Source of the DNA: Thermoanaerobaculia bacterium
GTDB lineage: Bacteria > Acidobacteriota > Thermoanaerobaculia > Multivoradales > JAGPDF01
Direction of reading: 5' to 3'
DNA: 56,144 bases
NCBI GenBank assembly: GCA_018057705.1
Contig: JAGPDF010000026.1
Coordinates: 1-56,144, forward strand
Position 1 is the stretch's first letter; every line of letters begins with the position of its first letter. The notes under the pieces were generated by a model. The model searched no databases. It was not told the DNA's origin and saw only the letters and a program-made list of their open reading frames with translations. Positions 28,537-40,471 of this stretch are shown piece after piece. The position numbers and the translations under genes were made by a program.

Positions 28537-31500
28537 ATGAGGAAGTTCGTGGCGTGGCATCGGTCCCTGCGGCAGCTTCCGGCAGCTCTCCTCCTCCTCG
28601 GCTCGGTGGTCCCGTCACCGGCGGCGCTCGCCTCCGGCGAATCGGTTCCGCTGAACGCCGTCAGCGTCCCGCCGGGGGCGACCATGACGATCACTTTCGA
28701 GGTCGACGTCGACAGCCCGCTGAACTTCTGCGCCACGGCGGTCAGCAACCAGGGCTCGATCAGCGGCACCAACTTCCTCTCGTTCCTGACCGACGATCCG
28801 GACGTCGGGGGCGCAAGCAATCCCACCGTCACCCTCCTCGACGCCGTCGACCTCGCGATCACCAAGACCGACGGCTCGGCGACCGAAGTCCCAGGCACGC
28901 CGGTGACCTACACCATCGCGGTCACCAACGCCGGTCCCGTCGGCGCCGTAGGTGCCAACGTTGCGGATACCTTCCCGGCTTTCCTCACTGGCGTCACCTG
29001 GACCTGCGCCGGAGCGGCGGGCGGAACTTGCACGGCCGCCGGTGCCGGCGACATCAACGATCTGGTCAATGTCCCGGTCGGCGGATCGGTCACCTACACC
29101 GTGAGCGCCACGGTCTCGGCGGCGGCGACCGGCACGCTGGTCAATACCGCCACCGTCACCAAGGCGGCGGCGCAGCTCGAGTGCAACTTCGCCAACAACA
29201 GCGCGACGGACACCGACACCCTGACGCCGCAGGTCGACCTGAGCGTCACCAAGAGCGACGGCCAGACGTCGATCAATGCCGGCAGCCCGACGACCTACAC
29301 GATCCAGGTCGGAAACAGCGGACCCAGCCACGCGGTCGGCGCAACCGTCACTGATAACTTCCCGGCGGATCTGACCGGCGCCACCTGGACCTGCTCGGCG
29401 ACCGGTGGATCGTCCTGCGCGGCCGGGCCCGTGGCGGGCAACATCAGCGACTCGGTGACCGTGCTCGCCGGCGGCACCCTGACCTATACCGTCAGTGCGA
29501 CGGTCAGTGGCTCCTTCTCGGGAGTCCTTTCGAACACGGCGACCGTGGCCGCAGCCGGCGGTACCACCGACACCAACTCCGGCAACAACAGCGCCACCGA
29601 CACGACCACGGTCGTTCCGGTGGCCGATCTGTCGATCACCAAGACGGACGGCGTCACGACGGCCGTGCCCGGCCAGTCGGTGACCTATACCATCACGGCC
29701 TCGAACGCCGGCCCGGCGACGGCCACCGGAGCGACGGTCGCCGACACCTTCCCCGCGACCCTGACCTGCACCTGGACCTGCGTCGGCGCGGGCGGCGGCA
29801 CCTGCACGGCCGCTGGCGCCGGCAACATCGGCGACAGTGTCAACCTCCCGGCCGGCGGCTCGGTCACCTACACCGCGAGCTGCACCATCGCCGCCGCGGC
29901 CACCGGTTCGCTGACGAACACGGCGACGATCAGCGGCGGCGGCGTCAGCGACACCGTCCCGGCCAACAACAGCGCGACGGACACCGACACGCTCAACCCG
30001 CAGACGGACGTTTCGATCACCAAGACCGACGGCAGCCCCACCGAGGTCCCCGGCACGCCGGTGACCTACACCATCGTCGCCTCGAACGCCGGACCGTCGG
30101 AGGCCACCGGAGTGACGGTCGCCGACACCTTCCCGGGCACCCTCTCCGGCTGCAGCTGGACGAGCCTCGCCGTCGGCGGCGCCACCGGCAACACTGCGGG
30201 TCCGGTGGCCGGCGACATTTCGAACGGTGGCATCACGCTGCCTCCGGCCTCCTCGGTGACCTATACCGCGACCTGCAACATCGCTGCGAACGCGACCGGC
30301 TCGCTCGCCAACACCGCCACGATCGGTGCGGCGACGACCGATCCGGCGCCGGGCAACAACAGCGCCACCGACACGAACACCCTCACGCCGCAGACCGACT
30401 TGAGCGTCACCAAGACCGACGGCGCCGCTTCCGAGGTCCCCGGTACGCCGGTGACGTACACGATCGTCGCCAGCAATGCCGGCCCGTCGACGGCCACAGG
30501 CGTCTCCGTAAACGACACCTTCGCCGGCATCCTCTCCGCCTGCAACTGGACGAGCGTCGCCGCGGGCGGCGCCACCGGCAACACCGCCGGCCCCGTCGCG
30601 GGCAACATCGCCGAGATCGCGATGACCTTCCCGGTGAGCGCTTCGGTGACCTACACCGCGACCTGCGACATCGCCGCAAACGCCACCGGAACCCTGGCCA
30701 ACACCGCCACCGTCGCGAGCGCCACCACCGACCCGTCGGCGGGCAACAACAGCGCCACGGACACCGACACGCTGACTGTGCAGTTCGATCTGGCGATCAC
30801 CAAGACCGACGGCCAGACTTCGATCAACGCCGGCAGCGCAACCACCTACACGATCGCGGTCGCCAACTCCGGTCCGAGCACCGCGACCGGAGCGACGGTG
30901 GCCGACACCTTCCCGGCCGACCTCGTCGGCCCGGTCTGGACCTGCGCGGCCTCGCCCGGCTCGAGCTGTGCCGCCGGGCCGGTCGCCGGCAACCTCAACG
31001 ACTCGGCCACCGTCGCCGCGGGCGGCAATGTGACCTACACCGTGAACGCCACCGTGAGCGGCACCGCCTCGGGGACGCTCTCGAACACCGCAACCGTGAC
31101 GCTCGCTGGCGACAGCAACGGCGGGAACAACAGCGCCACCGACACGACGACCGTCAATCCGGTCGCCGATCTTTCGATCACCAAGACCGACGGCGTCACG
31201 ACGGCGGTTCCCGGAATGACGGTGACCTACACGATCGTCGCCGCGAACGCCGGCCCGGCGACGGCAACAGCCGCCTCGGTCACCGACACCTTCCCCGCGG
31301 CCTGTGCCTCGGTGAGCTGGACCTGCGTCCCCACCGGCGCCGGCGCCTCCTGCACCGCCGGACCGGTCGCCGGCAACATCGCCGACGGTGCGACCCTGCC
31401 GGCCGGCACCTCGGCCACCTACACCGCGGTCTGCACGCTGGCCGACACCGCCTCCGGTTCGCTGGTGAACACCGCCACGATCGGCGGCGGAAGTGTTTCC

Positions 31501-34500
31501 GACACCAACCCGGGCAACGACAGCGCGACCGACACCGACACGATCCTGCCGCTCGACTACGGTGACGCCCCGGGCAGCGCCCAGGGATCGCCGTGGGCCT
31601 ACCCGACGCTCGTCGCCGACAACGGCGCTCGTCACGGCGTGAACGGCCCCGGCGCCCTGCACATGGGTGTCCAGCTCGACACGGAGGCCGACGGCCAGCC
31701 GACCCTCGCCGCCGACGGCGACGATCAGATCTCGGTGCCGAATGTCGATGACGAAGACGGCGTCACCCTGCCGGCAACCCTCGACGCCTGCGGCAGCGCC
31801 AACGTCGCGGTCAATGCCTCGGCAGTGGCGAAGCTCGACGCCTTCGTCGACTGGAACCGCAACGGCAGCTTCGCTGACGCCGGCGAGAAGATCTTCGACA
31901 ACCAGGCGTTGGCGGCGGGGGCGAACGTCCTGCCCTTCAGCGTCCCCTGCACCGCCACACCGACGACGCTCACCTTCGCGCGTTTCCGCGTGTCGACGGC
32001 GGGCAGCCTTCCGTCCACCGGCGTCGCTGCAGACGGCGAAGTCGAGGACTACGCCGTCGCCGTGCGCGGGCTCGACTTCGGTGACGCGCCCATCGTCTAT
32101 CCGACGCTCCTCGCCGGCAACGGCGCGCGACATATCGTCGTCCCCGGCGCCCTTCTCCTCGGGGCGACCGTCGACACCGAGGCCGACGGCCAGCCGACCG
32201 CCGGCGCAAACGGCGATGACCTCGCGACCAGCGACGACGAGGACGGCGTTGCCTTTACCAGTCCGCTGATCCGCGGCCAGAACGCCTCGGTCACCGTCAC
32301 CGCCAGCGCGCCGGGGGTGCTCAACGCCTGGCTCGACTTCAATGGTGACGGCAACTGGACGACCGCAGGGGACGCGATCTTCGTCAACGTCGCGCTCCTC
32401 GCGGGGGCCAACAACCTCTCCTTCCCGGTACCGGCGACGGCGACCACAAACCTGAACACGGTGGCGCGATTCCGCCTTGCCACCGCTGGCGGCTTGTCGT
32501 TCACCGGTCTCGCCAACGACGGCGAGGTCGAGGACCACGCCGTCGCGACCGCGGCGGAGGCCGATGTCGCGATCACCAAGACCGACAGCGCCGCGACCGA
32601 GGTCCCCGGCACGACCGTGACCTACACGATCGTCGCCTCGAACAACGGCCCGGACACGGCCTCCGGCGTCACCGTCGCCGACACGTTCTCGGGCGTCCTC
32701 TCCGGCTGCTCGACGACGAGCGTCGCCGCGGGCGGCGCCACCGGCAACGACGCCGGCCCCGTCGCCGGCAGCCTGAGCGACGGCGGCATCGATCTCCCCG
32801 TGGGCGGCACCGTGACCTACACGGCGACCTGCACGATCGCCGCGAGCGCCACCGGCTCGCTGGCGAACACCGCGACGATCGCTTCGGCGACCGGTGACCC
32901 GGTCTCCGCCAACAACAGCGCCACGGACACCGACTCCCTGACGCCTCAGACCGACCTCGCCATCACCAAGACCGACGGCGCGACGACCGAGGTACCGGGA
33001 ACGCCCGTCAGCTACTCGATCGTCGTGACGAACGCCGGCCCGAGCGATGCGGTCGCAGCGACCGTCACCGACACCTTCCCGGCGACGATCACGGGGGTCA
33101 ACTGGACCTGTGTCGGCGCCAACGGCGGCACCTGCCCGGCGGCCGGCAGCGGCAACATCAACACGCTCGTCGGCCTGCCTGCCGCAGGAAGCGCCACGGT
33201 CACCTTCACCGCGACCGGCACCATCGCCGCCTCGGCCACCGGCACGCTCGTCAATACGGCGACGGTCGCCGCTGGCGCGGGGGCCACCGATCCGGTCCCG
33301 GGCAACAACAGCGCCACCGACACCGACACCCTGAACGTCGAGTCCGATCTCGCGATCACCAAGACCGACGGCAGCGCCACCGAGGTCCCCGGCACGGCGG
33401 TGACCTACACCATCACGGCGTCGAACGCCGGCCCCTCGAACAACCCCGGCGCGACGGTCGCCGACACCTTCCCGGCGAGCGTCAGCGGGGTCAACTGGAC
33501 CTGCGTCGGCACCGGCGGCGGCACCTGCCCGGCGGCGGGAAGCGGCAATCTCAACGCCAGCGTCAACCTGCCGGCCGGCGGCTCCGTGACCTTTACGGCG
33601 ACCGGCACGATCGCCTCTTCCGCCACCGGCACGCTCGCCAATACGGCAACCGTGGCTGCGGCGGGTGGAACGACAGACCCGACACCAGGGAACGACAGCG
33701 CCACCGACACCGACAGCCTGGTCCCGTCGGCCGACATCCAGATCACCAAGGACGATTCGGCCGATCCGCCGCCGGCGGGCCAGGACCTGATCTACACCCT
33801 GACGGTGACCAACCTCGGGCCGTCGGACGCCACTGGCGTCGCGGTCAGCGATCCGCTGCCGTCCGAGGTCACTTACATCTCCGACGACTGCGGCGGCAGC
33901 AACACGCCGCCGTGGGCCTGGACGATCGGCAGCGTCGCAGCTGGCGCCTCCGAGGTCTGCAACATCACCGTCTCGATCAACCCGGCGCCGCCGATCTCGA
34001 TCTCGAACACCGCGACCGTGACCAGCACGACGGCGGACCCGAATTCGGCCAACGACTCCGACACCGAGCTGACGCAGCTCGACGCCGTGCCGCCGCAGGT
34101 GACGAACGTCGACAGTGTCACGGCGACCGGCGACGGCTCCCTCACCGAGTGCGAGACCGCGAACGTCACGATCACGAGCCTCCTCGTGACCTTCGACGAA
34201 GCGATGCAGGATCCGCCCGGCGATGTCGATCCGGACGACGTCACCAACCCGGCGAACTACCTCCTGGTCACGCCGGGGCCCGACTTCGACTTCCAGACCA
34301 CCGCCTGCGGCGGCGCGGCGGGAGACGACGTCGCGATCGCGGTGTCCTCGGTCGCCTACAACGGCGGCACGGAGACCGCGAGTCTCGCGCTCGCCGCGGC
34401 GCTGCCTTCGGCTCAGGTGCGCCTCTTCGCCTGCGACACGCTCACCGACCTCGCTGGCAACGCGCTCGACGGCGACGCCGACACGACGGCCGGCGGCGAC

Positions 34501-35079
34501 TTCCGGCGCGCGTTCCGCTCCGATCCGGGCAACGTCTTTGCCAACGGCCACTTCGACTGCGACGCGAGCCTCTGGAACGCCGTCGCTCCGAACCCGGCGG
34601 AGATCACCTGGACGGGAGCGGACGACGCCGACGACGCCGACGACTCGGGGTCCGTGCACTTCACCAACCTCGCACCCGGGACCGATACTTCGTTCCGGCT
34701 CTGGCAGTGTTACGACATTCCGGCGGACGCCCTCTTCGACGTCTCGGCGCGCGTCCGGCTGCAGGCCGCTCCCGGCGACTTCATCGGCTTCGTCCGGCGC
34801 TGCGAATTCTTCAGCGCCCCGGCCTGCACCGGCAGTCTCGGCGTTCAGACCGCGGCGCTCGCACTTCAGGACACCGCAGGCGGCTGGCTCACGCTCGGCG
34901 CGCAGCTCGCAAGGCCCGCCGGCGCCGTCGCGGCCCGTTGCGACTTCAGCTTCGAGACCCCGACCGCGGAGAGCTTCGACGCCTGGCTCGACGCCACCCT
35001 CTTCCAGGGCACCGGAGGACTCTTCGCAGACGGCTTCGAGTCCGGGGACACGTCGGCGTGGTCGGCGACGGTGCCTTGA
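28537..35079 (+). CDS. Giant secreted DUF11-repeat / GEVED surface protein
   Basis: The product has 2180 residues with a signal peptide (1-33). Eleven DUF11 (TIGR01451) repeats of about 120-130 residues start with D.(A/S)ITKTDG and end NNSATDTDT. Seven lie before and four after an island of two GEVED domains (about 1006-1340; DYGDAPGS and DFGDAPIVYPT starts). An Ig-like segment (about 1850-1960) and a beta-rich domain follow. The end is the LFADGFESGDTSAWS tail. Several repeats carry conserved Cys pairs. Such proteins form long extracellular stalks or adhesins. The ATG at 28537 has GTGAGG just upstream. The 116-nt gap before it shows nothing clear. Transcription may continue into the gene at 35173, 93 nt downstream. 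Confidence 0.9.
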   Translation: MRKFVAWHRSLRQLPAALLLLGSVVPSPAALASGESVPLNAVSVPPGATMTITFEVDVDSPLNFCATAVSNQGSISGTNFLSFLTDDPDVGGASNPTVTLLDAVDLAITKTDGSATEVPGTPVTYTIAVTNAGPVGAVGANVADTFPAFLTGVTWTCAGAAGGTCTAAGAGDINDLVNVPVGGSVTYTVSATVSAAATGTLVNTATVTKAAAQLECNFANNSATDTDTLTPQVDLSVTKSDGQTSINAGSPTTYTIQVGNSGPSHAVGATVTDNFPADLTGATWTCSATGGSSCAAGPVAGNISDSVTVLAGGTLTYTVSATVSGSFSGVLSNTATVAAAGGTTDTNSGNNSATDTTTVVPVADLSITKTDGVTTAVPGQSVTYTITASNAGPATATGATVADTFPATLTCTWTCVGAGGGTCTAAGAGNIGDSVNLPAGGSVTYTASCTIAAAATGSLTNTATISGGGVSDTVPANNSATDTDTLNPQTDVSITKTDGSPTEVPGTPVTYTIVASNAGPSEATGVTVADTFPGTLSGCSWTSLAVGGATGNTAGPVAGDISNGGITLPPASSVTYTATCNIAANATGSLANTATIGAATTDPAPGNNSATDTNTLTPQTDLSVTKTDGAASEVPGTPVTYTIVASNAGPSTATGVSVNDTFAGILSACNWTSVAAGGATGNTAGPVAGNIAEIAMTFPVSASVTYTATCDIAANATGTLANTATVASATTDPSAGNNSATDTDTLTVQFDLAITKTDGQTSINAGSATTYTIAVANSGPSTATGATVADTFPADLVGPVWTCAASPGSSCAAGPVAGNLNDSATVAAGGNVTYTVNATVSGTASGTLSNTATVTLAGDSNGGNNSATDTTTVNPVADLSITKTDGVTTAVPGMTVTYTIVAANAGPATATAASVTDTFPAACASVSWTCVPTGAGASCTAGPVAGNIADGATLPAGTSATYTAVCTLADTASGSLVNTATIGGGSVSDTNPGNDSATDTDTILPLDYGDAPGSAQGSPWAYPTLVADNGARHGVNGPGALHMGVQLDTEADGQPTLAADGDDQISVPNVDDEDGVTLPATLDACGSANVAVNASAVAKLDAFVDWNRNGSFADAGEKIFDNQALAAGANVLPFSVPCTATPTTLTFARFRVSTAGSLPSTGVAADGEVEDYAVAVRGLDFGDAPIVYPTLLAGNGARHIVVPGALLLGATVDTEADGQPTAGANGDDLATSDDEDGVAFTSPLIRGQNASVTVTASAPGVLNAWLDFNGDGNWTTAGDAIFVNVALLAGANNLSFPVPATATTNLNTVARFRLATAGGLSFTGLANDGEVEDHAVATAAEADVAITKTDSAATEVPGTTVTYTIVASNNGPDTASGVTVADTFSGVLSGCSTTSVAAGGATGNDAGPVAGSLSDGGIDLPVGGTVTYTATCTIAASATGSLANTATIASATGDPVSANNSATDTDSLTPQTDLAITKTDGATTEVPGTPVSYSIVVTNAGPSDAVAATVTDTFPATITGVNWTCVGANGGTCPAAGSGNINTLVGLPAAGSATVTFTATGTIAASATGTLVNTATVAAGAGATDPVPGNNSATDTDTLNVESDLAITKTDGSATEVPGTAVTYTITASNAGPSNNPGATVADTFPASVSGVNWTCVGTGGGTCPAAGSGNLNASVNLPAGGSVTFTATGTIASSATGTLANTATVAAAGGTTDPTPGNDSATDTDSLVPSADIQITKDDSADPPPAGQDLIYTLTVTNLGPSDATGVAVSDPLPSEVTYISDDCGGSNTPPWAWTIGSVAAGASEVCNITVSINPAPPISISNTATVTSTTADPNSANDSDTELTQLDAVPPQVTNVDSVTATGDGSLTECETANVTITSLLVTFDEAMQDPPGDVDPDDVTNPANYLLVTPGPDFDFQTTACGGAAGDDVAIAVSSVAYNGGTETASLALAAALPSAQVRLFACDTLTDLAGNALDGDADTTAGGDFRRAFRSDPGNVFANGHFDCDASLWNAVAPNPAEITWTGADDADDADDSGSVHFTNLAPGTDTSFRLWQCYDIPADALFDVSARVRLQAAPGDFIGFVRRCEFFSAPACTGSLGVQTAALALQDTAGGWLTLGAQLARPAGAVAARCDFSFETPTAESFDAWLDATLFQGTGGLFADGFESGDTSAWSATVP

Positions 35080-35172
35080 ACCCGCAGGGCAGGTCGGTAG
35101 CTTCGGGAGCTCGAGACGGTCGGGCGAGTTCGAAATCGCAGGGCAGGACGATCTGAGAGAGGACCGGAAGGC

Positions 35173-38100
35173 ATGAAGACCTTGATGCAGCAAAGCGCGA
35201 TCGTCGCCCTGGCGGCGGCTGGACTTGCCGTCTCCGCAGCACAGGCGGATCCTGGAGCCCGGACTCCGCAGTGGACGTGGACGGAGGCGACCCCGATCGT
35301 CGAGGCCGCGCCACCGCTCCCGCCGACCTCGATCTTCCCGGTGCAACTGGTGCTGGACGACGACACCGCTGACGGTTCGTTCGGCGTCGCCACCCAGACT
35401 GCACGCCAGTTCCTATGGTTCAATCGCTTCTCTCCCCCTGCCGGCTTCCACCTCGAGGAGGTCTGGGTCCTCTTCCCGTCAGGGAGCAACATGGCGGCCG
35501 GTGGCGCCGTTCAGATCGCGATCTACGAGGATCCCGACGGCGATCCGTCGAACGGCGCGACGCTCGTCCAGAGCTTCGACACCACGATCCAGGTGGCCGA
35601 CGGCAACACCTTTTCGATCTATCCCCTGCCCGCCTCGGTCTTGATCCCCGGCGGCAGCGAGCTCTTCGTCGGTGTCGTGCCGCGCTTCATCGTCAGCGGC
35701 GTGACCTCGCCGACAACCCCCGCCGCCCTCGACACCACGACCTCCCAGGCGCGCTCCTGGCTCGCCGTCTGGAGCGCCGATCCGCCCGACCCGCCGGCGC
35801 TCCTCCCGCTGCCCGACCAGTCCTACGTGCTGGTGGACGCCTTCGTCCCCGGCGGCGGCAACTGGATGATCCGGGCCTTCGGCAGCGAGCAGGGAATCAC
35901 CGAGATTCCGACCCTCGGCGAATGGGGCCTCGCCGCCCTGGCCCTCGCCCTCCTCGCCGCCGGCGTCGTCCTTCTCCGGCGCCGCTGCCGATGCGGCGTG
36001 GGTGCCGCGCTGGCGCTCGCCCTGCTCGCGCTCGCCGCGCCAGCCGGCGCGGTGACGATCGACGACTTCAACGTCAACATGCCCGCCCTGCTTAGCGCCC
36101 CGCCGCAACAGAGCTCGAATACTGCCAACGCCGCGATTCTCGGCGGGAACCGCGGCGTGGTGCTGGACAACCTGTCCGGCTCCGGCCCGACGACGGTGAA
36201 CGTGACGGGCGGAAACCTCGTCTTCACCGTCACCGCGACGACGCCCGACTCGCGCGGCGAAGCGCGTCTTTCGTGGGATGCCGACACGAACCCGCTCGTC
36301 CTCTCGACGGGAGGGTTCAATCCCGGGGTCGATCTCACCGCCGGAAATACGAGCGGATTTCAGATCGGATTCACCTCTTCGACCGTCGCTGCCGAAATCG
36401 AGATCACCGTCCACGACGACAACGTGGTCGCGAACTCCTCGCGCGCCGTGCGGCGCGTCGCCGTGGGCGGTGCGCAACTTGTGCGGATCCCGTTCAGCGA
36501 GTTTCGCACCTCCGGCTCGGCCCCCGCCAACTTCGCCGACGTCCGCGCGGTCGAGCTGACCATCCGGGCGGGCGAGGGGACTTTCTCGATCAACGAGTTC
36601 ATCACCTCGCCTCCGGCCCTCGCGGCGACCAAAGTGGATCAACAGGTCCTCGACGTCGACGGCGACACGCGGGTCGATCCGGGTGATCGGGTGCGCTATA
36701 CGGTGACGGTCACCAACACCGGCAACGAGGCGCTCGCGGTCGATCTCTCCGACACCGTCGACGCCAACACCACTCTGGTCGCCGCTTCGGTCTCCTCGAC
36801 TCCCGTGGCGCACAACGACCAGTATGGCTGGTTCGGCAATGTCACCTTCGCGACCGACGGATCGGCCACGAAGCCCGATCTCCTCGATAACGACCAGGAC
36901 GCCGACGGCGACACCCTCACCGTCCAGAGCGGCACCTTCCCGGCGACCACTGCCCAGGGCGGCACGTTGACTCTGATCTCCGCCGCGACGGGCGAGTTCA
37001 CCTACAGCCCTCCGGCCGGCTTCGCCGGCGTCGACAGCTTCAACTACACGATCCTCGACGACAACGGCAACACCTCGACCGCGTCGGCGAACATCACCCT
37101 CGACGGCGTGATCTGGTTCGTCGACGACTCGAACACGACGCCCCCGCATCTCGGGACGCTCGCCGATCCGTTTCAGACGCTGGCCTCGGTCAACAGCGGC
37201 AGCGACCCCGACCAGCCCGGCGACACCATCTTCGTCTTCGACGACGACGGCACGGCATACGCCGGCGGCCTCGTCCTCGAAGCCGACCAGACGCTTCTCG
37301 GCGAAGCCGCGGGACTCATCCTCGACGGCACGACGATCGTCCCGGTCGGCGGCCGGCCGCAGATCACCAACGCCGCGGGTGTCGGCCTTTCGCTTTCGAC
37401 GAACAACACACTCGGCGGCTTCGACATCCAGAACACCTCCGGCGCCGGCATTTTCGGCTCGGCCTTCGGCACGCTGACCGCGACGAACGTGAACGTCCTC
37501 ACCACCGGCGGCGCGACGCTCGATCTCACCACCGGCGCCCTCTCTTCTGTGGTCTTCGGAACGCTCTCCTCGACGGGCGCGGGCGGCCAGCGCGGCCTGA
37601 ATCTCGCCACCCTTACCGGCAGCCTGACGGCGACCACCACGAGCCTGACCAATCCGACGACCGACGGCATCCTGGTGAGCGGCTCCGCCGGCGCCTCCTT
37701 CAGCTTCGGCGCCACCACCGTCACCGACAACGCGATCGGCTCCGGCGCGACGGCGGACGGCATCGACATCGCGACTGGCAACGCCGGCTCGACCTTCAAC
37801 TTCGCGAGCCTAGCGGTCACCAGCGACGCCGGCGCCGGCCTCCGCGCGAGCAGCAGCGGCACGATCAACCTCAGCGGCACCGGGAACTCCATCGTCTCCA
37901 CCGGCGGGGCAGCGGTCGATGTCACCTCGACGAGCTTCGGCTCCGGCGTGACCTTCGCGACCCTCACCTCGACCAACAGCACCGGCAAGGGTGTCAACCT
38001 CGACACCGTCACCGGTAGCTTCACCGCCAACGGCGGCTCGATCAGCGGCGCCACGGTCGGTTGCTTCGACGTCAACGCCGGTTCCGGCAACATCACCTAC

Positions 38101-39948
38101 ACCGGAAACATCACCTGTCCGGTGGGCAGGATCGTCGACATCACCGCCCGCACCGGGGGCACGATCGCTCTCTCCGGCAACCTCTCGGCGACCGGCTCCG
38201 GCTCCGGCATCAACGTCGCGAGCAACAGCGGCGGCACGGTCAACTTCAGCGGCACCTCGAAGTCTCTCGGCACGACCACCGGCGCCGCCGTCACCCTCGC
38301 CACCAACACCGGCGCCACCATCAACTTCACCGGCGGCGGCCTGGCGATCACCACCACCTCCGGCAGCGGCTTCAATGCCACCGGCGGGGCGACCGCGATT
38401 ACGGTTCAAGGCGCCGGCAACACGATCGCCTCCACGACCGGGACGCCGCTCAACGTCGCCAACTCGGCCATCGGCGCCAGTGGCCTCACCTTCCAGAGCA
38501 TCGCTGCAAACGGGGCGGCGAGCGGGATCTCGCTCAACACCACAGGCTCCTCCGGCGGCCTCACGGTCACCGGGACGGGGACCACCGATGGCAGCGGCGG
38601 AACGATTCAGAACACCTCCGGGCGGGGTGCCGCTTTCATCAGCACCGCCGCCATCTCGCTGAGCAACATGAACTTCACCAGCGCAGGTACCAGCGACCTG
38701 GATGCCGACAACTCCGGCCTTTCGACCGGCGACAACCTGGCGACGAACGCGGCCATCCACCTGCAGACGGTGACCGGCGCCACTTTGACGAACTTGAACA
38801 TCACGGGAGGCGCAGAGCAGGGCATCAACGGCAACGCCGTCTCGAACTTTGCGTTGAGCAATAGCTCGATCGTGGACGTCGGCAACGGCCCGGACGAGGA
38901 TGGGATCCACTTCTTCAACATGTCCGGCACGAGCTCGATAACGAACAACACGTTCACCTGCACGGTCGCGACGCACAACACCACGGGCGGCGACGATCAC
39001 ATCAATTTGCAGATGCAGTCCGGGACGCTCAACCTCACGATTTCCGGCGGAAGCGCCAACAATGCCAACAAGGGCAGCGGCTACCTGATGGGCATTCGCG
39101 GGACTGCGAGCGCGACGGTGACGGTCGACGGCGTTACGTCCGACAACAACTTCAGCGGCGGTATCGTGATCGACACCTTCGACACCGCGACATCCGTCAT
39201 CGAGATCAAGAACAGCTCGAGCATCAACAACAACGATGCCATCTCGCTGAGCAGCAACAACGGCAACACCAAGTTCGACATCCACGACAACGTCAGCTTC
39301 GCCGGCACCGATTTCGTACGGATCAACATTCTGAAGGCGGCGTTCTCGACAACCGGGACGCTGGAGGGCAAGATCCGCAACAACCCGATCGTCGTAACGG
39401 ACGGCCAGGCCGCGGACGGTATCATCGTCGCCCAGCGCGGCGACGGGACGCTCACGGTCAGCATCACGAACAACACCTTCACCTATCGCGGCACTCAACG
39501 GCCGATCAACATCCTAGGTGGCCAGGACGGATCCGGCCAGCTCAATGCGACCGTCACCGGAAACAGCATCGACATGCAGCTCGACGGCACCGGCAACGCG
39601 GTGACCGGGATCTTCGCGCAGACAGCTGTCGCCTCCCCCAGCGGCGACAACACGAACATGTGCGCCGACATCGGCGGGGCTGGAGGGCTGCGAAACGTCT
39701 TCACGCATTCCATGGGCGGGAACATGGTGGCTGGAGAGATCCGTGTCCGCCAGCGGTTCGTGACGACGGTCACGCTTCCCGGGTATGGCGGAGCGAACAA
39801 CGACGACGCCGCGGTGGTGACATATCTTGCCGGCAGGAATACACTCGTGAACGTACCCTCGGCGACGGCGACGAACGAAGTCGGCGTGACCGTGGGTGCG
39901 GGCGGATTCGTCAACGCGGCCTCCTGTCCGCAACCGGTTTTCCCTTGA
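35173..39948 (+). CDS. IPTL-CTERM protein fused in frame to a DUF11/beta-helix surface protein
   Basis: This 1591-residue reading frame looks like two secreted proteins. Residues 1-271 have a signal peptide (1-25), a beta-sandwich and a complete IPTL-CTERM sorting signal: IPTLGEWG at 245-252, a hydrophobic helix, then RRR at 269-271. That signal is normally the very end of a protein. Directly after it comes a second signal-like segment (about 276-293, ending APAGA). Then follow a domain to about 475, one DUF11-like repeat, a cadherin/Ig-like unit (about 540-640) and a long right-handed beta-helix (about 660-1560) rich in NNT/GTG turns. IPTL-CTERM proteins are sorted by an exosortase. A lost stop or a one-base deletion near 35990 could have joined two genes. 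Confidence 0.8.
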   Translation: MKTLMQQSAIVALAAAGLAVSAAQADPGARTPQWTWTEATPIVEAAPPLPPTSIFPVQLVLDDDTADGSFGVATQTARQFLWFNRFSPPAGFHLEEVWVLFPSGSNMAAGGAVQIAIYEDPDGDPSNGATLVQSFDTTIQVADGNTFSIYPLPASVLIPGGSELFVGVVPRFIVSGVTSPTTPAALDTTTSQARSWLAVWSADPPDPPALLPLPDQSYVLVDAFVPGGGNWMIRAFGSEQGITEIPTLGEWGLAALALALLAAGVVLLRRRCRCGVGAALALALLALAAPAGAVTIDDFNVNMPALLSAPPQQSSNTANAAILGGNRGVVLDNLSGSGPTTVNVTGGNLVFTVTATTPDSRGEARLSWDADTNPLVLSTGGFNPGVDLTAGNTSGFQIGFTSSTVAAEIEITVHDDNVVANSSRAVRRVAVGGAQLVRIPFSEFRTSGSAPANFADVRAVELTIRAGEGTFSINEFITSPPALAATKVDQQVLDVDGDTRVDPGDRVRYTVTVTNTGNEALAVDLSDTVDANTTLVAASVSSTPVAHNDQYGWFGNVTFATDGSATKPDLLDNDQDADGDTLTVQSGTFPATTAQGGTLTLISAATGEFTYSPPAGFAGVDSFNYTILDDNGNTSTASANITLDGVIWFVDDSNTTPPHLGTLADPFQTLASVNSGSDPDQPGDTIFVFDDDGTAYAGGLVLEADQTLLGEAAGLILDGTTIVPVGGRPQITNAAGVGLSLSTNNTLGGFDIQNTSGAGIFGSAFGTLTATNVNVLTTGGATLDLTTGALSSVVFGTLSSTGAGGQRGLNLATLTGSLTATTTSLTNPTTDGILVSGSAGASFSFGATTVTDNAIGSGATADGIDIATGNAGSTFNFASLAVTSDAGAGLRASSSGTINLSGTGNSIVSTGGAAVDVTSTSFGSGVTFATLTSTNSTGKGVNLDTVTGSFTANGGSISGATVGCFDVNAGSGNITYTGNITCPVGRIVDITARTGGTIALSGNLSATGSGSGINVASNSGGTVNFSGTSKSLGTTTGAAVTLATNTGATINFTGGGLAITTTSGSGFNATGGATAITVQGAGNTIASTTGTPLNVANSAIGASGLTFQSIAANGAASGISLNTTGSSGGLTVTGTGTTDGSGGTIQNTSGRGAAFISTAAISLSNMNFTSAGTSDLDADNSGLSTGDNLATNAAIHLQTVTGATLTNLNITGGAEQGINGNAVSNFALSNSSIVDVGNGPDEDGIHFFNMSGTSSITNNTFTCTVATHNTTGGDDHINLQMQSGTLNLTISGGSANNANKGSGYLMGIRGTASATVTVDGVTSDNNFSGGIVIDTFDTATSVIEIKNSSSINNNDAISLSSNNGNTKFDIHDNVSFAGTDFVRINILKAAFSTTGTLEGKIRNNPIVVTDGQAADGIIVAQRGDGTLTVSITNNTFTYRGTQRPINILGGQDGSGQLNATVTGNSIDMQLDGTGNAVTGIFAQTAVASPSGDNTNMCADIGGAGGLRNVFTHSMGGNMVAGEIRVRQRFVTTVTLPGYGGANNDDAAVVTYLAGRNTLVNVPSATATNEVGVTVGAGGFVNAASCPQPVFP

Positions 39949-39970: not shown

Positions 39971-40471
39971 ATGGCCGAACCCTTTCTGAGCGAGATCCGC
40001 ATCATGAGCTTCGCCTTCGCGCCCAAAGGCTGGGCACTGTGCAACGGCCAGCTGCTGCCGATCAACCAGAATCAGGCGCTCTTCTCGCTCCTCGGCACCA
40101 CCTTCGGCGGCGACGGGCGGGTCAACTTCGCGCTTCCCGATCTGCGCGCGAGAACACCGATCCATGTCGGTTCCGGCCATACGCTCGGTGAGCGAGGGGG
40201 AGAGCAGGCGCATACGCTCTCGATTGCGGAGATTCCGCAGCATCTCCATCTCGTTCAGGCGAGCACCGACACCGGCGACCAGCAGGATGCGGCGGCGCAC
40301 GTTCTGGCCACCGTTCCCGGCCGGATCTACAGCGATCCTACGAACCTAGTCGCGCTACGTGCCGACACGGTCACGAACGTCGGCGGGAGCCAGGCGCACC
40401 TCAACATGCAACCGTTCCTGACACTCTCCTTCTGCATCGCACTTCAAGGCATCTTTCCGAGCCCCACCTGA
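39971..40471 (+). CDS. Phage tail-collar / microcystin-dependent (MdpB-like) protein 1
   Basis: This 166-residue protein contains the tail-collar domain: SEIRIMSFAFAPKGWALCNG at the N-terminus, LLPINQNQALFSLLGTTFGG, FALPDLRARTPIH, a middle EIPQHLHLV and the C-terminal GGSQAHLNMQPFLTLSFCIAL ending in FPSPT. The domain comes from phage tail fibres, but families like this occur in chromosomal loci without phage genes, as here. It is the first of three tandem paralogues. No signal peptide is seen. The role is unknown; adhesion or surface display with the neighbouring giant proteins is a guess. Confidence 0.88.
   Translation: MAEPFLSEIRIMSFAFAPKGWALCNGQLLPINQNQALFSLLGTTFGGDGRVNFALPDLRARTPIHVGSGHTLGERGGEQAHTLSIAEIPQHLHLVQASTDTGDQQDAAAHVLATVPGRIYSDPTNLVALRADTVTNVGGSQAHLNMQPFLTLSFCIALQGIFPSPT

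Follow-up and report, generated by a model that had tools for sequence, protein, structure and literature searches.

The open reading frame at positions 35173-39948 of the window, by which we mean the whole 56,144-nucleotide stretch of DNA from an uncultured Thermoanaerobaculia bacterium that was analysed, encodes in one chain an exported beta-sandwich domain (B), a membrane hairpin and a further exported domain (C). We consider it probable that this B::C protein is a natural polyprotein that comprises two surface proteins and whose hairpin would be cut by exosortase H (XrtH) at its first helix and by signal peptidase after its second. The same joined gene is present in relatives, which makes the fusion real and hence makes cleavage of the chain into two proteins probable. 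Among viruses, polyproteins from which several exported products are cleaved are well known; among bacteria they are rare.

Architecture of the fusion gene and its junction

The features of the locus, all on the forward strand, are the following.

28537..35079, +, upstream gene A, a 2180-aa DUF11-repeat protein ending FADGFESGDTSAWSATVP (ORF, family hits)
35173..39948, +, B::C fusion gene, 1591 aa (uninterrupted ORF, family hits, homologous fusions)
35173..35250, +, first signal peptide, about residues 1-26, ending AQA (sequence; model helix 3-22)
35305..35895, +, domain B, about residues 45-241, a beta-sandwich (homologues, model)
35905..35985, +, IPTL-CTERM sorting signal, residues 245-271, IPTLGEWGLAALALALLAAGVVLLRRR: motif, helix 1 and RRR (TIGR04174; helix 250-270)
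35992..36051, +, internal signal peptide, residues 274-293, CGVGAALALALLALAAPAGA ([AV]-x-A in 8/8 fused proteins; helix 275-286)
36052..36672, +, start of domain C, residues 294-500, a second beta-sandwich (relatives, model)
39971..40471, +, downstream gene D, 166 aa, Tail-Collar/Mdp-like by eye (similar neighbours of C in genomes G002, G003, G034 and G019)

An earlier note on this DNA had described an IPTL-CTERM signal inside the frame, followed at once by a second signal-peptide-like stretch, and both elements are confirmed. The first scores 27.4 bits against TIGR04174 with the whole protein and 34.9 bits in a genome scan, over the curated cut-off of 20.5. Residues 274-293 are hydrophobic and end in APAGA, an A-x-A signal-peptidase motif, and signal peptidase I is predicted to cut after A293. 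All eight fused proteins known to us have a strict [AV]-x-A two or three residues ahead of [IVL]D[DT]F, against a background of 3.9%, a conservation that does not amount to eight independent tests because the proteins are related; with its hydrophobic core and this motif at a fixed place, the second segment has the make-up of a signal peptidase I substrate. The 12 other IPTL-type sites examined in the same genome start 27-59 amino acids before a stop, whereas the signal of the 1591-aa protein is internal, with about 1,340 amino acids to follow, of which about 1,320 come after the RRR. Since those 12 sites lie near stops and the arrangement recurs at seven other loci, the succession of IPTL signal and hydrophobic stretch is more than chance.

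The transmembrane and signal-peptide calls derive from hydropathy, motifs and an AlphaFold model (mean pLDDT 77, pTM 0.49) in which helices 250-270 and 275-286 lie between two beta-sandwich domains. A fold search returned weak matches only, to carbohydrate-binding-module-like beta-sandwiches (TMt about 0.5 for CBM11 and CBM30), which are too weak for a function to be assigned. Family hits in the domain C part comprise DUF11, tandem-95 and further repeats. The query has no viral relative in the IMG/VR viral contigs, on which ground a viral origin of the protein was rejected.

The order of the genes, A, B, C and then the Tail-Collar-like D, is conserved. The end of gene A (window positions 35022-35079), where its product closes with DGFESGD, may represent a separate C-terminal signal; for 23 of the 27 B loci, a DGFE[ST]G motif lies no more than 900 bases upstream. 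An antisense open frame of 2243 aa (28615-35346, reverse strand) runs across gene A and probably reflects GC-rich codon use rather than a gene.

Fused and separate forms among relatives

When 99 related genomes were searched with the first 509 residues, seven other loci proved to carry the uninterrupted fusion, a single open frame running across the junction (G015, two in G032, G019, G023, G029 and G002), at 40-54% identity (41-54% in that search). A profile search of the 149 genomes of the class added none, so that the fused loci total eight, spread over seven genomes and three families, all within one order (Acidobacteriota, Thermoanaerobaculia). The records for several of them are Acidobacteria/Thermoanaerobaculia metagenome-assembled genomes. 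The frame is retained across the junction in all eight. In the closest pair, G023 and G029, the junction hairpin has a pN/pS of 0.37 and is free of frame-breaking gaps; the junction frame is under purifying selection there. The value of 0.88 for the window and G015 comes from a pair too diverged at the junction to inform.

In two genomes, G003 and G034, B and C are adjacent separate genes, B ending just past its sorting tail and C having its own signal peptide. The start of C and the stop of B overlap as ATGA in G003, and in G034 C lies in a separate frame after a gap of about 60-90 bases. The comparison of homologous loci that the earlier note had proposed, with a search for two separate genes, thus came out both ways, with seven loci fused and these two split. 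A further 17 copies of B occur without a fused C; most end a few residues past the basic cluster, and the genes downstream of them differ, where checked. G042 has a C relative behind gene A, and no B was matched between the two. The B/C pair is therefore known both fused and split among relatives, and in a weakly resolved tree of B the two forms are intermixed (for example, fused G002 beside split G034, with 96/84 support), which requires at least two changes from one form to the other. A relative of the C domain in G085 (L123 3576-5114) bears a C-terminal VPTL tail of its own.

Exosortase H and the proposed processing of the junction

The source genome encodes XrtH (TIGR04177; 121.9 bits, cut-off 86), in which the Cys, Arg and His that we take to be catalytic are held by NGCNGVEA, NLVRV and SSHTVIWQ. 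XrtH was found in five of the six other fusion genomes and went undetected in the remaining one, G023, an assembly of 840 contigs. It is carried by 24 of the 26 genomes matching the A1 profile versus 72 of 123 in the rest of the class (Fisher p 0.0006, kinship uncorrected). In G024, XrtH was undetected and the B homologue (L046 1339-2181) lacks the sorting tail, its frame stopping directly behind the domain.

According to the polyprotein model, the first signal peptide would export B until the IPTL helix halts transfer; the Arg cluster would stay inside, as fits the positive-inside rule, and double as the positive n-region of helix 2, which would restart export and carry C out. XrtH would cut at the IPTL motif and transfer B to an anchor; a cut by signal peptidase I after APAGA would release C. 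The model is directly supported by the conserved frame, by signal motifs at fixed places, by the same pieces forming true ends in the two-gene versions and by XrtH; the membrane topology, the two cuts and what becomes of B and C are what we infer.

It is conceivable, although rather unlikely, that a single cut is made, XrtH releasing B while helix 2 stays uncleaved and what is left of the hairpin holds C in the inner membrane. A strong IPTL match speaks for this, and after XrtH cleavage the hairpin would indeed remain on C, but the position of the signal peptidase motif does not change among the eight fused proteins, and helix 2 is loosely conserved like an ordinary signal peptide (pN/pS in G023/G029 of 0.59 for TM2 versus 0.24 for TM1). 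Quite unlikely, too, is an uncut chain, in which B and C would act as a single surface protein of two domains that the hairpin fastens to the membrane: the retention of the fusion over large distances in several genomes speaks for it, and against it speak the conservation of both cleavage motifs, the existence of B and C as the products of two genes in both G003 and G034, and the same tail end on lone B in many genomes. Separate translation of C from a start codon within the B frame is very improbable. An in-frame GTG does precede the second hydrophobic stretch, at 35998, but its product would have no basic n-region, and no clear ribosome site lies ahead of any candidate start; internal re-initiation was rejected because the linkers of all eight fused loci contain no in-frame ATG and that of G029 contains no ATG, GTG or TTG. 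Finally, the probability that two genes were joined through an assembly error or a recent frameshift is negligible, since the fusion recurs in independent assemblies (seven loci in six of them, 40-54% identical), which for practical purposes excludes the former, and since the frame is intact in 8/8 and the two-gene versions join differently, for which reasons a recent one-base loss was rejected. Both had been offered as options in the earlier note, citing an off-frame ATG at 35991; that ATG is present, but its frame closes at 36095. The third option named there, that a genuine protein carries an exosortase-type signal internally, draws support from the uninterrupted fusions in six other genomes.

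Related hairpins and wider occurrence

The closest known kind of protein is midcut-by-XrtH (NCBIfam NF033207), which likewise combines a mid-protein hairpin with XrtH in the genome. A gammaproteobacterium, G514, has XrtH and eight members over the cut-off, in frames of 185-254 aa; their hairpin consists of an [IV]PT-like motif, a helix, RR and an Ala-ending second helix, and leads into a new exported-looking domain. One member over the cut-off (48.3 bits) is present in G012, from the same order as the window. The B::C protein has the layout of the family (mid-protein XrtH-type signal, second hydrophobic stretch, more exported sequence), while its score of 32.6-37.6 bits lies below the cut-off of 45, as do the 16.0-35.9 of the other fused homologues, and its match covers 55-60 of 175 model positions, in the hairpin part only. 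It would work like NF033207 proteins, though no formal member, and unlike them it has large unrelated proteins on the flanks of its hairpin that also exist as separate genes. The mid-protein hairpin principle appears, judging by the family name, to be known to NCBI curators, and the collection of papers that we searched contains none with 'midcut-by-XrtH', nor any with 'IPTL-CTERM' together with exosortase. B::C is a distinct variant of that principle, with a natural comparison of fused and split forms.

With the IPTL-CTERM/exosortase H system (TIGR04174/TIGR04177) the locus shares a signal and an XrtH that are both over cut-off, but the IPTL-CTERM copies examined in the same genome are C-terminal. 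In the cytochrome b/c1 fusion fbcH of Bradyrhizobium, too, one bacterial frame gives rise to two proteins by way of an internal signal peptide; unlike B::C, to which it is unrelated in protein content, that fusion has no exosortase signal. The LPXTG, PEP-CTERM and GlyGly-CTERM sorting signals have the same tripartite form (motif, helix, basic cluster) and are described as C-terminal (PMC3237569), whereas the B::C chain continues beyond.

An internal IPTL-type tail with an immediate second hydrophobic stretch is found in other, unrelated Acidobacteriota proteins as well: L078 (G081), L082 (G028), L083 (G014), L085 (G008), L049 and L126 (G012), and L079, L086 and L088 (G429). It is possible, if short of probable, that a reusable hairpin of exosortase tail and signal peptide has time and again served bacteria to link a sorted surface protein with a second, unrelated exported one, as a general polyprotein device that would yield the two in equal amounts. 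A pair that occurs fused and split, with both signals kept, offers a natural experiment on the exosortase cut site and on the need for a C-terminal signal, both of which have so far mostly been inferred from comparative genomics. For annotation, it cautions that an internal IPTL signal should not be treated as a frameshift.

As to what follows the tail in these other Acidobacteriota proteins, one leads into a CxxCH cytochrome-like protein and several lead into a domain that starts near a DGxxxDW-like motif.
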